DNA from: Azospirillaceae bacterium | GTDB taxonomy: Bacteria; Pseudomonadota; Alphaproteobacteria; Azospirillales; Azospirillaceae | DNA length: 64,000 bases | Assembly (NCBI GenBank): GCA_028283825.1 | Contig: JAPWJW010000003.1 | Span: 620,001 to 684,000, forward strand | Direction of reading: 5' to 3' | Part shown: positions 23,714 through 61,876 of the stretch, piece after piece | Layout of the letters: each line of letters begins with the position of its first letter | Position numbering within the stretch: position 1 is the first letter of the stretch | The notes under the pieces: model-generated | The model's database searches: none | What the model saw: only the letters and a program-made list of their open reading frames with translations | What the model was told of the DNA's origin: nothing | Program-made: the position numbers and the translations under genes

Positions 23714-23790
23714 TGGTCGGAGCGACAGGATTCGAACCTGCGACCCTCAGACCCCCAGTCTGATGCGCTACCAGGCTGCGCTACGCTCCG
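23714..23790 (-). tRNA. tRNA-Pro (anticodon GGG)
   Basis: A full cloverleaf on the minus strand: acceptor CGGAGCG/CGCTCCG, D-arm GCGC...GCGC, anticodon stem TCAGA/TCTGA with loop CTGGGGG (anticodon GGG), T-arm GCAGG-TTCGAAT-CCTGT, and discriminator A followed by encoded CCA. It reads CCC/CCU codons. Confidence 0.96.
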
Positions 23791-24119
23791 ACCTCTCGAT
23801 GAACCGCAGCGCTGGGCTGCTGTTCGGGCGCGGACTATATCCACGAGGTTCATAGGATGCAACGCTGATGGAGGGCTTGGCGTAAAAAAAGTGACCTTTC
23901 TTTAAATATCTTTATTTATCAATCATCTAACGCGATGGCTCGCAGCGCGGCGCATGCATGCCCTCCACCAAAAGGCTCTTTGGGGCGCCCCAATATCATC
24001 CACAGCGGGCAACAGGCCTTCCGCCCAAGGTACGCGCCGGACAGCGCCGGCGGGGCAAGGCGGCCCCATGAACCTGGCGGAAGGGCAACAAGGGCTATCC
24101 GACCGGAAGATGATCACAG
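23791..24119. other. AT-rich region upstream of the reverse-transcriptase operon
   Basis: No credible ORF on either strand. 23880-23935 is strongly AT-rich (runs of A and TTTAAATATC-type words) and is the likely plus-strand promoter of the downstream three-gene operon. The following ~180 bp to the first start codon are gene-free and could hold a leader or a non-coding RNA. Confidence 0.45.
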
Positions 24120-25280
24120 ATGATGGAATATTCATCTTTTGGATGTATAATAGGCGAGAATATCCCGAGGAGCGGCTCGGTGCGGTTCGTATTTCCAAGT
24201 TTGGCGCGCTGGCGGCCTGTTGTGGCCTGCTTATTTCCCGTGGCCTTTCTTGCCGCCGACTTCGTTTTTTCCCCCATCCTCATCGATACCTATATCGACA
24301 ATGAGCAAGCGAACATCACGGAAGTCCTGCGGCATGGTCCAATGCCGCTGGGCAATTTCCGCGGCCACCGCCTTCTTGTTTCCGTCGACGACCTGGCCGC
24401 CCCCGATTTTCTCGCGAATGTCAGTAGCGCCGGGAAGAACGCCCTTCTTGTCTCCGTGTTCCAGCAAAGCTCGGAGGATGAGCCCGTGTCCCCCTATTTG
24501 CCCGGGGTGCTGGCCAGGGGAATCTTGGCCCGCCTGGATGCGGTGTCGCCAAGAGACCGCGTAAACATTATTCAACGGCTGGAACATCTATATGGGGAAG
24601 CGCCTGGGCAGGCCTATCACGTTCCGGTGCACATCCCCGCCGGCCAACGCCATCAACTTCCCCTGGATTCAGTCATCATTGTCACCCTGCCCGCGACAGA
24701 TACGGAAACAGCTCTGGCATCAGGCTTGAGGAAAGCATTTCTGATCGCCAACGAGAACTCCATCACCAATGTCATTGTTCCCAGCCTAACCTTGAAATGG
24801 AAGAACGCCAACAATAAAAATGATACAAAACCATATAGATATTTCGAGATTCTATTTAATAATATCACAACACCAGATAATATCGATAATATTTACATAT
24901 CAATATACAAATCATGGCCTTCAATTAAAATCGAAGAATTAGTTACTTCGATAAACTCTAAATGGAAGAGCGCTTCCGCCAGTGAAATAGCGGGCGTCCC
25001 CCTTCACCATCGTAGCTTACGCCTATTGGCGGCGTTCCTCATCCCGTGCCTTTTCATGTGCACCCTTCGCTTCCAACTAAGTCTGAAGAATACATCCCTA
25101 TTATCGGTAATATTCTGTGGAGCGGCATATAGCTTCATGGATCTTTTCGAGAAACTGACTGATGGCCAGGGAGGTTGGTTCAAAACACTCGCGCTACTTC
25201 TCGGGCTAGGGACGCTATCCTTGCTGTTTCCAGAATTTTCCAGACTTGATCCCGAAAAAATTCTGCGCCGCAGGACGTGA
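24120..25280 (+). CDS. membrane-anchored protein of unknown function, first gene of the RT operon
   Basis: A 386-residue protein. One hydrophobic helix near the N-terminus (about 33-56) is followed by a soluble alternating alpha/beta domain (about 60-290), then three hydrophobic helices (about 300-318, 325-343, 354-372) and a basic tail. The soluble part contains DSVIIVTLP, LASGLRKAFLIA and ITNVIVPSL, spaced like the strand-helix-strand core of a Macro-like nucleotide-binding domain; that is a weak structural guess. The second half (24800-24970) is much more AT-rich than the window, a sign of transfer. The start follows GGAAGATG. It ends 3 bp before the reverse transcriptase. Confidence 0.7.
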   Translation: MMEYSSFGCIIGENIPRSGSVRFVFPSLARWRPVVACLFPVAFLAADFVFSPILIDTYIDNEQANITEVLRHGPMPLGNFRGHRLLVSVDDLAAPDFLANVSSAGKNALLVSVFQQSSEDEPVSPYLPGVLARGILARLDAVSPRDRVNIIQRLEHLYGEAPGQAYHVPVHIPAGQRHQLPLDSVIIVTLPATDTETALASGLRKAFLIANENSITNVIVPSLTLKWKNANNKNDTKPYRYFEILFNNITTPDNIDNIYISIYKSWPSIKIEELVTSINSKWKSASASEIAGVPLHHRSLRLLAAFLIPCLFMCTLRFQLSLKNTSLLSVIFCGAAYSFMDLFEKLTDGQGGWFKTLALLLGLGTLSLLFPEFSRLDPEKILRRRT

Positions 25281-25283
25281 AAC

Positions 25284-26723
25284 ATGGCTCTGGACATTGC
25301 GGATTTCCCCCTCTCCCTGGCGATAAGACAGGTGATCGACCACGTGTCGTACAGCAACGCGGTACCCGACTGGGTCAGTCCCTTGATGATCGATTATAAT
25401 GGCCGGGAACAGGTTATCCGGACGCTGCTCACCCGATACCATGCCGGCCACCCCCCCGATGCCGCTTTTGAGATTTCGGCCCCCAAGCGGACGGGCGGCG
25501 GCAATATCTGGATAGTGCCCACCATCAACGACCAGATCGTTCTGCATGCCTGTGTAGCCGCCATCGCCCCGACCATCGAACAGCGATGCATCGACCAGAA
25601 CACGTTCAGCAGCCGCCTGAACAAGCTGCCAAACAGCCTGGCCTTCATAGAAGATCAGATCGACGCCTGGAAATCATTCAAGGCGGAGATAGAGGCCACC
25701 TGCCAGCAGAAGCAATGCATACTCCAACTGGACATCCGTTCCGCATACGCCTCTATTGATCTAGACGACTTTTCACGATTCCTTAAGGAAAAGGCGAACA
25801 ATCATCCGGCAGCGACGATCATTTCCAATACGCTGCGGTCCTATTCCAAGAATCGGGGCCTGCCCTTTATCAACGATTCCGTCTTTTTTCTTGGAAACGC
25901 CTATTTCAGCAGGGTGGATGGCATCGTCAGGGACCAAGGTTTCCATTTCATCCGGTTCGCGGACGACTACAAGATTTTCGCCGATTCGACTGATCGCCTC
26001 GACCGCCTTTTGGCCGTGCTCAGACCCGAATTACGCAAAGTGGGCTTCACCATCAATGATGATAAACTGCGGTTGGGAACCGACGAGGAATTCCTGGAGG
26101 CGATGGCGAGCCAGCAATACTCCCAGGCACTGCAATCAGCCGACTATAACAGCGGCAGCGACGATAACGCCCAGCCAGCCAGCCCGACAAAAGCCGAGGC
26201 CCTGTTCAAGCTCGTGATGGCGTGCCTGGAAAGACCGGATCAACTGCTGCACCAAGGTTATGGGCGGCTGCTGACCGCATCCATCCGCCGACTGCGAAAC
26301 AACGGGGATTACGTCAGGGAACGGGGCAACGTCATGGATGAACTGCCCGATGAGGAATTTGACGACCTGATTCTCGCAAGCCCTGAAGCCCTGAACTTGG
26401 CCGCCAACCTGTTGGAAACGTATTCCGCCAACGGCGATACATGGCGCCTGATCTGGGTACTTCATCTCTGCAAGAACCTGTTCCCGGTGAAAGGCCGCTA
26501 CTTTCCGCCGGCGGAGGAAGCAAATGACGGAGCCACCGCCGCCAGGGGCCGCCTCACCACCATCATGGATTCGTTGAGCAGTTCCACAACGGCGCCCGAT
26601 GTCATCAGGGCATGGGCCGCTAGGCCTATCAAAACCGGAAACGACGCTGGGACCCTGCGGTTGATTGAACGGATGCACGGGGCCCAGTATGAGGAAGGGG
26701 GACGCCTCTGGCATGCGCTCTAA
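25284..26723 (+). CDS. reverse transcriptase of the unknown-group/Abi type (candidate defence RT)
   Basis: A 479-residue protein with a reverse-transcriptase domain at about 60-270. Visible are an N-terminal ISAPKRTGGGNIWIVP-type block, INDQIVLHA, motif A LQLDIRSAYASI with catalytic D150, motif B GLPFINDSVFFLGNAY, motif C RFADDYKIF with D227-D228, and a motif D/E region GFTINDDKLRLGT. There is no maturase (X), no endonuclease and no IEP-like DNA-binding domain, so it is not a group II intron protein. Residues about 290-479 are helical and lack known motifs, as in Abi/UG reverse transcriptases. It is sandwiched with 3-bp and overlapping junctions between a membrane protein and a HIRAN protein. 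The UG class cannot be assigned by eye. Confidence 0.85.
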   Translation: MALDIADFPLSLAIRQVIDHVSYSNAVPDWVSPLMIDYNGREQVIRTLLTRYHAGHPPDAAFEISAPKRTGGGNIWIVPTINDQIVLHACVAAIAPTIEQRCIDQNTFSSRLNKLPNSLAFIEDQIDAWKSFKAEIEATCQQKQCILQLDIRSAYASIDLDDFSRFLKEKANNHPAATIISNTLRSYSKNRGLPFINDSVFFLGNAYFSRVDGIVRDQGFHFIRFADDYKIFADSTDRLDRLLAVLRPELRKVGFTINDDKLRLGTDEEFLEAMASQQYSQALQSADYNSGSDDNAQPASPTKAEALFKLVMACLERPDQLLHQGYGRLLTASIRRLRNNGDYVRERGNVMDELPDEEFDDLILASPEALNLAANLLETYSANGDTWRLIWVLHLCKNLFPVKGRYFPPAEEANDGATAARGRLTTIMDSLSSSTTAPDVIRAWAARPIKTGNDAGTLRLIERMHGAQYEEGGRLWHAL

Positions 26724-27135
26724 TACTCATTCCCCGCCGAACGCTTCGGACCAACGCCACCCTCGTCGGCGCGCCGTCCTAACGGCGCTGACCGCGCTCA
26801 GTTCCATGCTTTTGCTGCCGCGACCGACATCTGTCAGCAGTGGCGAACAGGGCCCTCCACTGTCCTTTTTCGTGGCGGGCGTACGCTATCAAAAAGCGCC
26901 GATCCGGCTGTTGGAAGGGGACCGGGTCAGGATCGTGCCCGGCACCTTCAACGGTGCCCGCAGCTATGCAGTCATCGCCACCACCGGCGAACAAGTGGGT
27001 TTCGTGCCGAAAGGGACGGTTCCGCTGGTCACGTCCTTATCGTCATCGGCAGGCGACGAACACATCGCCCGCGTCATCCTCGCACAACACGACGCCGTGC
27101 CGTGGAAGCGTTATAAACTGGCAATGGGCCGATGA
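26713..27135 (+). CDS. exported HIRAN-domain protein, third gene of the RT operon
   Basis: A 140-residue protein. Its ATG lies inside the end of the reverse-transcriptase gene (11-bp overlap) and follows GGAAGGGGG, so the two are translationally coupled. A twin-Arg-like N-terminus (PRRRAVLTALTALSSMLLLP) is followed by a HIRAN-like domain (about 48-105): FFVAGVRYQ, LLEGDRVRIVPG, and GEQVGFVPKG. HIRAN domains bind DNA 3' ends in eukaryotic HLTF; in bacteria they occur with phage or repair proteins. An exported HIRAN is odd, and the leader might instead be a membrane anchor. Confidence 0.7.
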   Translation: MRSNTHSPPNASDQRHPRRRAVLTALTALSSMLLLPRPTSVSSGEQGPPLSFFVAGVRYQKAPIRLLEGDRVRIVPGTFNGARSYAVIATTGEQVGFVPKGTVPLVTSLSSSAGDEHIARVILAQHDAVPWKRYKLAMGR

Positions 27136-27205
27136 CGCCAGCGGACGCATCGCACCACCGAGACTTGGCAAGGTTTGGCCCCCGACGCTATTCAGGGCAA
27201 GCGGA

Positions 27206-27976
27206 TCAAAGCACCCGGCGCAGCAGGTCGCGAATCTCTTCCAGGTCGCCCAGCACCTGGCCCAGCGCCTCCCGCTTGGACGGGGACAGGCCCCTGTCCG
27301 CGCGGCGGTGGGGGGCCGCTTCGGCGGTCGGGGCCATGGACGGCTCCGGCTCGGGCGGTGGTGTCCGCGCCCATTCTGGATCGGCCTCGGGATCGTGGTC
27401 GAACAGGCCGATGATCCGGCGCTTCTCTTCCCCGCGGACGGGCGCCGGTTCGGGTGCGGGGGCCGCAGACTCGACCCAGTTGTCTTCCGCCGCCTCCGGC
27501 TCCGCTGTTGCGGAGTGGTCGGTGAGGGCATGGTCGGTGGACGATGCTCCGGCGCGGCCGGCAGAACCGGGGCGCAGCAGGCGCTGCACCCCCTTGATGG
27601 TGTAACCTTCCTTGTACAGCAGCACCTGGATGCGGCGCAGAAGCTCCACATCATCCGGGCGGTAATAACGGCGGCCGCCACCCCGCTTCAGCGGGCGGAT
27701 GGTGGGGAACTTGGTTTCCCAGAAACGCAGGACGTGCTGTGGCACGTCCAATTCCGCCGACACCTCGCTGATGGTGCGGAAGGCGGTTGGCGACTTGGCC
27801 GAGGGCCGCGCGCGATCCGCCGTGGCGGCGGCCTCGCCACCATCACCCGCGGCCACCACATCCCCGGCATCGCCCTCCCCAGCAGCGAGTCCTTCGGCGT
27901 CATCCGAAGGCGATGCCTCCGGCGTGCCGTCAGGCTCCTGCATATCCAATGACTGGGGAACGGACGTGCCGGGCAT
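27206..27976 (-). CDS. MerR-family transcriptional regulator
   Basis: A 256-residue protein with a winged-helix MerR DNA-binding domain at about 68-140 ([21 protein letters not shown], then [19 protein letters not shown]). The N-terminal 65 and C-terminal ~110 residues are Pro/Ala/Glu-rich and look disordered; a short helix ends the protein ([19 protein letters not shown]). It starts 3 bp after ihfA, an arrangement conserved in alphaproteobacteria. No effector cysteines are seen. Convergent with the accessory RT operon. Confidence 0.9.
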
Positions 27977-60783: not shown

Positions 60784-61125
60784 TCATTGTTTCGGACCCT
60801 GCTTGTGACGGCTCAACGCCTTTTTCATCCGTGCAGAGATATCCATGGCGGGATGCAGCACATTGAGAATCTCCAACCGATGAGCATGCTCTTGGTATCG
60901 ATAGACAATCAAATGCCTGCCGACGCCATAGACAAGATAAGGTCCAGGAATATCCGAGCGGCGGCGCCCCAAATCTGGACTCTTCGCCAAGCGTTCAAAA
61001 GCAAGGAAAAGCGCCCGAAGATAATCCTCCGCCTGGGCATTTCCCCAACAACAAGCGGTATAATCTTCGATTTCGGCGAGATCCAAACCCGCTTCGCGGG
61101 AAAGGATATATGAAGCCTTGGCCAT
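60784..61125 (-). CDS. parE: ParE/RelE-family toxin
   Basis: A 113-residue toxin of the RelE/ParE fold: YILSREAGLDLAEIEDYTA, then AFERLAKSPDLGRRRSDIPG, YLVYGVGRHLIVYRYQEHAHRLEILNVLHPAMD read in parts. The ATG shares one base with the stop of the upstream antitoxin gene (TAATG), so the pair is translated together. ParE toxins poison DNA gyrase. Confidence 0.85.
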   Translation of the reverse strand: MAKASYILSREAGLDLAEIEDYTACCWGNAQAEDYLRALFLAFERLAKSPDLGRRRSDIPGPYLVYGVGRHLIVYRYQEHAHRLEILNVLHPAMDISARMKKALSRHKQGPKQ

Positions 61126-61388
61126 TAAGACGACTGAGCTTGGCGCCGGGCGCGCCCCTCCGCTAGAAGGCTTTCGACGGACACGTCAGCAATATCGCCT
61201 TCATCCAGTTGCTGCGCACTGAGCGCGAGATAATCGCCCAACAGCTTACGGGCATGTTCTGCCTGCCGTTTTTGATCTTCCCTGATCAAGTGGCGGATAT
61301 ATTCACTGGCGCTGTATTGGCCTTCCTCCGCTTGCTTCTCAACATAGGCCCTCATGGTTTCGGGCATCGAAACGTTTAAGGTACTCAT
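61125..61388 (-). CDS. parD: ParD-like (CopG/RHH) antitoxin
   Basis: An 87-residue protein: MSTLNVSMPETMRAYVEKQA at the N-terminus with a ribbon-helix-helix (YSASEYIRHLIREDQKRQAEH), then an Asp/Glu-rich C-terminal tail that would wrap the toxin. The ATG at 61388 follows GGGAG. Antitoxin first, toxin second, on the minus strand, as usual. Confidence 0.85.
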   Translation of the reverse strand: MSTLNVSMPETMRAYVEKQAEEGQYSASEYIRHLIREDQKRQAEHARKLLGDYLALSAQQLDEGDIADVSVESLLAEGRARRQAQSS

Positions 61389-61474
61389 CCAGAACACTCC
61401 CATCGGCTGCTGGGCTCTTCCTGGTTTGGATGGTAAGATATGGCCAAACTTTGTCAAATCTTGGCTTAAATCTT

Positions 61475-61876
61475 TTATCGAACATCGCCATCCAGCCGCC
61501 GCCGGATATCCGCGTACGCCGCCGCGATAAGCCCATTGAGCGCCACGACATTCGGTGGCTGGCCCCACACCAGCTTCACGTGACGCATGCGCTTGCCGGT
61601 GCCCAGCAGCAGGCCAGCGGGATCGTCGAGGTCGGCGCCGTGGAAAAAACCGAGGTTCGCGTGCGCTGTGAAAGCCTTGACGTAGGCGAAGGCGGCATCG
61701 CCGACGCAGGCGGTGGGGTGGCCGTCGTGCAGCAGGTCTCGTACGTCGGGGCCACAGTTCCGCAGGGCCTCGAACCAAGGCCGGACCAGAGGGCGCAGCC
61801 CGTCATCCTGGGCGAACCAGGCTTCGACTTCCGCATGGCGGCGGACGGCGCCGGACAGGAGGAACAGGGCTTCCAT
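61475..61876 (-). CDS. DUF1801 (YdhG-like) protein
   Basis: A 133-residue protein of the YdhG/DUF1801 group: DLLHDGHPTACVGDAAFAYVKAF and HANLGFFHGADLDDPAGLLLGTGKRMRHVKL read in parts. Function unknown. The ATG at 61876 is preferred over the frame start at 61966, whose first 30 residues look non-coding. It precedes the chemoreceptor terminator. Confidence 0.8.
   Translation of the reverse strand: MEALFLLSGAVRRHAEVEAWFAQDDGLRPLVRPWFEALRNCGPDVRDLLHDGHPTACVGDAAFAYVKAFTAHANLGFFHGADLDDPAGLLLGTGKRMRHVKLVWGQPPNVVALNGLIAAAYADIRRRLDGDVR

Follow-up and report, generated by a model that had tools for sequence, protein, structure and literature searches.

A membrane protein, reverse transcriptase and HIRAN-like protein cassette in Nitrospirillum, a candidate DRT-like defense system

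In a 64,000-nucleotide stretch of the genome of an Azospirillaceae bacterium of the genus Nitrospirillum (contig JAPWJW010000003.1, positions 620,001 to 684,000; hereafter, the window), three tightly joined open reading frames (ORFs) on the plus strand, spanning approximately positions 24180-27135 of the window, encode a membrane protein, a reverse transcriptase (RT) and a HIRAN-like protein. The trio likely represents a new, rare DRT-like RT system, with a pair of RT partners that is absent from the papers we searched, and we lean toward interpreting it as an anti-phage cassette of small size that is exchanged horizontally, the anti-phage role being deduced from kinship and behavior. The original prediction, made from the DNA sequence alone, that no described system is known to contain this trio is in agreement with our survey of the literature, in which no report of it was found among the hits listed; an earlier description may nevertheless exist. 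The search of other genomes that the prediction had called for was productive: Nitrospirillum amazonense BR 11880 (hereafter, the relative) carries the same trio, in the same order and at the same site between tRNA-Pro and merR.

The anatomy of the cassette is well supported. The gene for the membrane protein (24180..25280, plus strand, 366 amino acids; delineated from the ORF, the relative, an AlphaFold2 model, Foldseek and hydropathy) ends with a stop codon at 25278-25280, which leaves a 3-bp gap before the RT gene (25284..26723, plus strand, 479 amino acids; Pfam, PADLOC and phylogenetic tree), and the latter overlaps the gene for the HIRAN-like protein (26713..27135, plus strand, with an alternative start at ATG 26689; profiles and the relative). 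The two outer ORFs are present as originally predicted but their start codons have to be moved: the membrane protein gene probably starts at GTG 24180, which is equivalent to the start in the relative, rather than at ATG 24120, and for the third gene, the likely start is not TTG 26665 but either ATG 26713, with an 11-bp overlap with the RT gene, or ATG 26689, with a 35-bp overlap, both ATGs being conserved in the relative. The 3-bp gap and the overlap of 11 or 35 bp, together with the same gene order in the second species, bear out the claim that the three genes form one unit. The trio is not a chance set of ORFs because the same order recurs in the second species and the dN/dS ratio of the RT gene is about 0.15-0.17. 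The deviant base composition noticed originally is real: the GC content of the trio is 0.554 compared to 0.663 +/- 0.020 (minimum, 0.611) across 277 overlapping segments of the same length outside the trio, and in the relative, the GC content is 0.533 for the trio compared to 0.684 for the neighbors from merR to plsX.

The RT matches the Pfam RVT_1 domain (E-value 4.9e-14), and its motifs, QLDIRSAYASI, GLPFINDSVFF and the catalytic FADD, are intact. As had been proposed, it lacks retroelement parts: the scores with the profile for group II intron RT/maturases (TIGR04416, 47.9 bits, cut-off 300) and with the retron RT profile (retron_St85, 24.1 bits, cut-off 235) are far below the respective cut-offs. 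A phylogenetic tree of 28 RTs (31 were collected, from which one duplicate and two fragments were dropped) corroborates the assignment to the unknown group (UG)/Abi kind by placing the window RT among 13 UG-type RTs, separated from 15 group II-like or unlabelled ones with 100/100 support. Within the UG-type part of the tree, the window RT and that of the relative share a long branch of their own outside UG7, UG9, UG13a and UG20, the four groups by which the UG class was represented, and the tree-building program flags long branches that meet at the join of this pair. The group labels come from PADLOC except for L005, which was named by its likeness to L002, and L003, which carries no label; the 15 other sequences consist of eight unlabelled ones and seven called group II by a motif.

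The nearest profiles of UG/Abi (DRT) enzymes are Drt8 (UG7), UG21, UG32 and UG9. The window RT resembles these enzymes in having an RT core with the catalytic motif, a similar size and a non-retroelement setting, but it scores no higher than 100 bits with any PADLOC UG profile (best score, 100 bits; 99 bits for the relative). In a calibration, nine members of four groups (UG7, UG9 small, UG13a and UG20) reach 444-804 bits with their own profiles; the calibration did not include true members of UG21, UG22, UG23, UG32 and UG34. Because a group II-like RT from the window genome also scores 99 bits with the UG21 profile, PADLOC scores of about 100 bits mean little beyond the recognition of an RT. 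Membership in UG21 or Drt8 was rejected on the strength of these two observations, and, by the PADLOC profiles tested, the RT lies outside the named classes; the refuting outcome named originally, an RT from such a class accompanied by its known partners, did not materialize. A profile of the RT compared with the sequences of solved structures yielded 15 matches at E <= 0.1 (best E-value 8.1e-5); all but one are RTs, and these are weak hits to generic enzymes. The window genome also contains four equal-scoring places for an RT with what we presume to be a group II-type motif (C1:730662, C1:777766, C2:346449 and C3:219054), one of the four having been read, and other genomes of the same family carry RTs of the UG20, UG9 and UG13a types (L007, L008 and L009).

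Between the two carriers, the RTs are 65% identical, the membrane proteins 49-50% and the HIRAN-like proteins 62%. The RT gene evolves under purifying selection (dN 0.25, dS 1.4-1.7), with dN/dS estimates of 0.246/1.41 (or 0.252/1.73); the corresponding values are 0.266/1.56 for the HIRAN-like gene, and in the membrane protein gene dN is 0.39 with saturated silent sites. The core neighbors show dS values of 0.354 (fabH), 0.343 (plsX) and 0.465 (ihf), so that the silent-site divergence of the RT and HIRAN-like genes is 3-4 times that of these three genes. In a small tree of fabH plus plsX, in which the remaining forks lack resolution, BR 11880 joins two species with an empty site, with 100/100 support. 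This clustering and the dS excess, both derived from sequence comparison, strongly suggest that the three genes were transferred together by horizontal exchange. Most simply, the two versions of the trio diverged earlier than the two species, and the trio arrived or was replaced separately in the same place, each time as a set; rapid change at silent sites could also account for the excess.

The trio is rare. At the level of the order (82 genomes), matches to the RT at E <= 1e-6 occur in six genomes, namely, the two carriers and four genomes with other RTs (33-37 bits); at the class level, the own genome is the only match at E <= 1e-10 (385 genomes), and at the phylum level, the matches are to the own genome and to a single genome with a UG7 RT at 57.5 bits (259 genomes). 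The membrane protein was found in the own genome alone among 260 class genomes. The genome samples in the class, phylum and own-genome searches overlap. A scan of genome contigs retrieved 73 stretches that include one relative, and scans of plasmids, phages and viruses retrieved little or nothing (one viral locus, L031); these scans rely on exact matches to short peptides and may therefore overlook relatives that have diverged.

The membrane protein is predicted to consist of an N-terminal hydrophobic helix, a macro-like alpha/beta domain (approximately residues 46-245) and C-terminal hydrophobic helices; two segments alone pass a simple hydropathy cut. In the AlphaFold2 model, which was built from two sequences, the mean predicted local distance difference test (pLDDT) score is 55, with 13 of the 15 ten-residue blocks within positions 51-200 at 58-84. 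A Foldseek comparison of this pLDDT 55 model with the PDB detected 1zr5_A (E-value 2.7e-7, probability 1.00, TM-score 0.61 by target length and 0.35 by query); the total at E <= 0.001, counting every kind of match, is 130. The top rows include 5iit and 7d3y, which carry SPX titles; crystals of this type use a macro-domain carrier. The same model produced 30 matches to viral models at E <= 0.001, some of them named macro; the others presumably contain a macro domain as well. For the soluble part of the protein, this amounts to the prediction of a macro-like fold with modest confidence. A profile of the membrane protein found no significant match among the sequences of solved structures (best E-value 1.4). 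Identity with PDC-M04A, suggested by a 14-bit score, was rejected given that the relative shows no match and that members of that family, which we take to be DUF3800-like, read as a different protein.

The third protein appears to be distantly related to a family of exported, stand-alone HIRAN proteins of Pseudomonadota, judging by its signal, core and C-terminal end. Its description as an exported HIRAN protein held in part: the twin-arginine-type start (HPRRRAVLTA...), which is common to the proteins of both species, and the match to a profile of exported HIRAN proteins are in its favor, but the score with Pfam HIRAN (17.2 bits) is below the cut-off of 24.7, and the protein of the relative has no Pfam match. 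The hydrophobic stretch of the twin-arginine-type signal is mild (1.2 on the hydropathy scale). With the PADLOC profile PDC-M03B, the window protein scores 24-25 bits and that of the relative 17.4 bits; in a search of 299 phylum genomes with this profile, 30 genomes matched, the own genome not being among them at E <= 0.001. The 30 loci yielded 18 central ORFs, of which eight with an N-terminal signal-like stretch were picked by eye; seven of the eight contain an adjacent arginine pair. A profile of these eight proteins, run with hmmsearch against 374 sequences, recognizes the window protein at 9.3e-6 and that of the relative at 7.9e-4, with the next background ORF at 0.53. The window protein shares with the exported proteins the twin-arginine-type start, the HIRAN-like core and a C-terminal PWxR motif but does not retain their NxYD stretch. 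Pfam HIRAN matched in 8 of the 142 class genomes, and no twin-arginine start was noticed by eye among the central ORFs of these eight; hence, the exported kind of HIRAN protein was seen in the wider phylum only. The search of the own genome with Pfam HIRAN gave no match at E <= 0.001, and the best match of the HIRAN profile among the sequences of solved structures had an E-value of 0.087. A structure model of this protein was set aside (mean pLDDT 47, no Foldseek match at E <= 0.001); the HLTF HIRAN domain, at rank 50 with a probability of 0.57, was not used as evidence. Where they have been tested, HIRAN domains bind the ends of DNA (PMC8262856). One survey reports the pairing of a HIRAN gene with a gene from the NAD-ADP-ribose network, which we mention as a lead only (PMC9503650).

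A template noncoding RNA (ncRNA) of the kind that accompanies DRT2, DRT9 and DRT10 was not found upstream of the trio or in Rfam; an RNA located inside the genes or belonging to an unknown family may still exist. The upstream similarity between the two trios stops with the host flank, and no conserved RNA was detected beside the RT; Rfam at gathering scores recognizes tRNA alone in the window and in the BR 11880 locus (L045). The z-scores of four 131-150-nt folds range from -1.64 to +0.66.

The gap between tRNA-Pro and merR is a variable insertion site: among seven Nitrospirillum genomes, two contain the trio, one contains another insert, and four are empty, with gaps of about 290-365 bp as measured from the tblastn ends. 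In the window, the left border of the site is tRNA-Pro (ggg) (23714..23790, minus strand; ARAGORN and Rfam) and the right border is a MerR-family gene (27206..27976, minus strand; Pfam MerR_1). Local alignments to the four empty sites leave a stretch of about 3.3 kb unmatched (23924..27192), with an unsure left border because the matches stop between 23894 and 23923. The trio is the sole recognized content of this segment, in which no integrase or transposase ORF was seen by eye. Adjacency to a tRNA gene, part of the original prediction, is confirmed, but the trio lies on the 5' side of tRNA-Pro, so that this cue is weaker than it looks. Integrases usually insert on the 3' side of a tRNA gene. 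A tRNA-integrated element was rejected on the basis of this 5' position and of the location of a prophage-like region of BR 11880 on the opposite side; the latter (L045:7372-12880, also L031) consists of phage-like genes 3' of tRNA-Pro, terminase- and tail-like by eye. The IMG/VR contig of this region (L031) terminates exactly with the membrane gene of the trio, the encoded protein being identical, letter for letter, to that of BR 11880, and hence catalogues may file the membrane gene as viral.

Another Nitrospirillum species (G445) has, in the same gap, a repeat-rich ORF of 964 amino acids that is unrelated to the trio (L044:3920-6814) and is overlapped on the opposite strand by an ORF of 1019 amino acids. 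Between tRNA-Pro and cutA, this genome has a 410-amino-acid ORF (L044:7188-8420), in a gap of about 1.85 kb compared to about 0.6 kb in two other species. Elsewhere in the window, a reading frame in a patch of lower GC content (61125-61778) encodes what we take, from the type of sequence, to be a ParD-like antitoxin.

If the trio is indeed an anti-phage cassette, the RT would synthesize DNA in infected cells with no template RNA dedicated to it, like the class 1 and class 3 UG/Abi enzymes; the DRT1 paper provides a precedent for template-free synthesis. The membrane protein would be the effector: its macro-like domain would sense a signal, either a nucleic acid or a nucleotide, and thereby alter the state of the transmembrane helices, in the manner of the Thoeris transmembrane (TM)-macro effector or of the role proposed for the SLATT partner of DRT10. 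The HIRAN-like protein would act as an accessory at the membrane surface, where it would bind either DNA ends or the membrane partner, and the infection would be expected to abort with damage to the membrane. RT defense systems with membrane partners have been described (PMC12632851): DRT10, which consists of a UG17 RT, a SLATT membrane protein and an ncRNA, resembles the trio in that the RT adjoins a membrane protein within one unit. It differs in that UG17 is outside the best 25 of the 62 profiles matched by the window RT, the window membrane protein does not match any SLATT profile, no ncRNA was found at the trio, and the trio adds a HIRAN-like gene. TM-macro proteins are known Thoeris effectors, and ThsA combines transmembrane helices and a macro domain in one protein (PMC11204291). 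In the window protein, by contrast, hydrophobic helices flank the macro-like domain on both sides, and the partner is an RT; for TIR, the domain of the ThsB partner, there is no Pfam match in the three proteins, which is where the search was made, and the trio leaves no space for a further gene in the segment.

Several observations weigh against an anti-phage role with this mechanism. The HIRAN label is weak, with Pfam below the cut-off in the window protein and nothing in the relative or genome-wide, and the loss of the NxYD stretch makes DNA binding unsure. The membrane proteins of the window and the relative have no match to Pfam Macro, so the macro call comes from the pLDDT 55 model; moreover, charge counts suggest that the N-terminus lies inside, the macro-like domain outside, in the periplasm, and the C-terminus inside. 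A periplasmic macro-like domain would be out of reach of a cytosolic signal, in conflict with the Thoeris-like reading. Furthermore, the 10 neighboring proteins (six on the left and four on the right) have no PADLOC matches at E <= 0.001, and nine of them match ordinary Pfam families (for example, ribosomal S9 and L13, CutA1, HU/IHF and fatty acid synthesis), which indicates that there is no defense island right beside the trio. With two carrier genomes only, a statistical link to defense genes is out of reach.

Some of these observations fit alternative explanations. The export-type signal of the third protein, the charge counts that put the macro-like domain outside and the lack of defense profile matches in the ten scanned neighbors would all be compatible with a domesticated RT that makes DNA or serves as a scaffold in a cell-envelope or stress function, such as envelope-stress sensing, with periplasmic partners. 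We regard this as unlikely; a gene set with a housekeeping function would not usually be present so patchily (two of the seven genomes) or show indications of horizontal exchange at a variable site. The compactness and apparent mobility of the unit, with a membrane protein beside the RT, could also point to a selfish, toxin-antitoxin-like addiction cassette without benefit to the host, in which the RT and its product would keep a membrane toxin under control, in the way that retron complexes restrain a toxic effector (PMC12548924). This explanation is quite unlikely given that the best retron profile scores 24 bits compared to the cut-off of 235 and that, at gathering scores, the window and the BR 11880 locus contain no Rfam RNA other than tRNA. 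Finally, each type of partner, considered by itself, is part of a broader fold or family, and the three genes might simply be unrelated neighbors, but a second species has them in the same order with the same junctions, and the excess of divergence is shared, which makes this extremely improbable.

What is most unusual about the trio is that both partners are predicted to be located in the periplasm. This location would be reconciled with defense if the macro-like domain and the twin-arginine-exported HIRAN-like protein, both in the periplasm and coupled to the cytosolic RT, met entering phage DNA or its free ends, an idea that we consider a long shot. If true, the cell envelope would become a site of RT-linked immunity, which, to our knowledge, it is not for any described DRT, and partners that face the periplasm would point to a mechanism that we do not know of in RT immunity. 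More generally, the RTs of the UG/Abi kind keep yielding unexpected DNA chemistry, and the combination of an RT lineage beyond the reach of the search profiles with a pair of partners that was not found in the papers searched makes this small (3 kb) cassette a candidate for direct testing.

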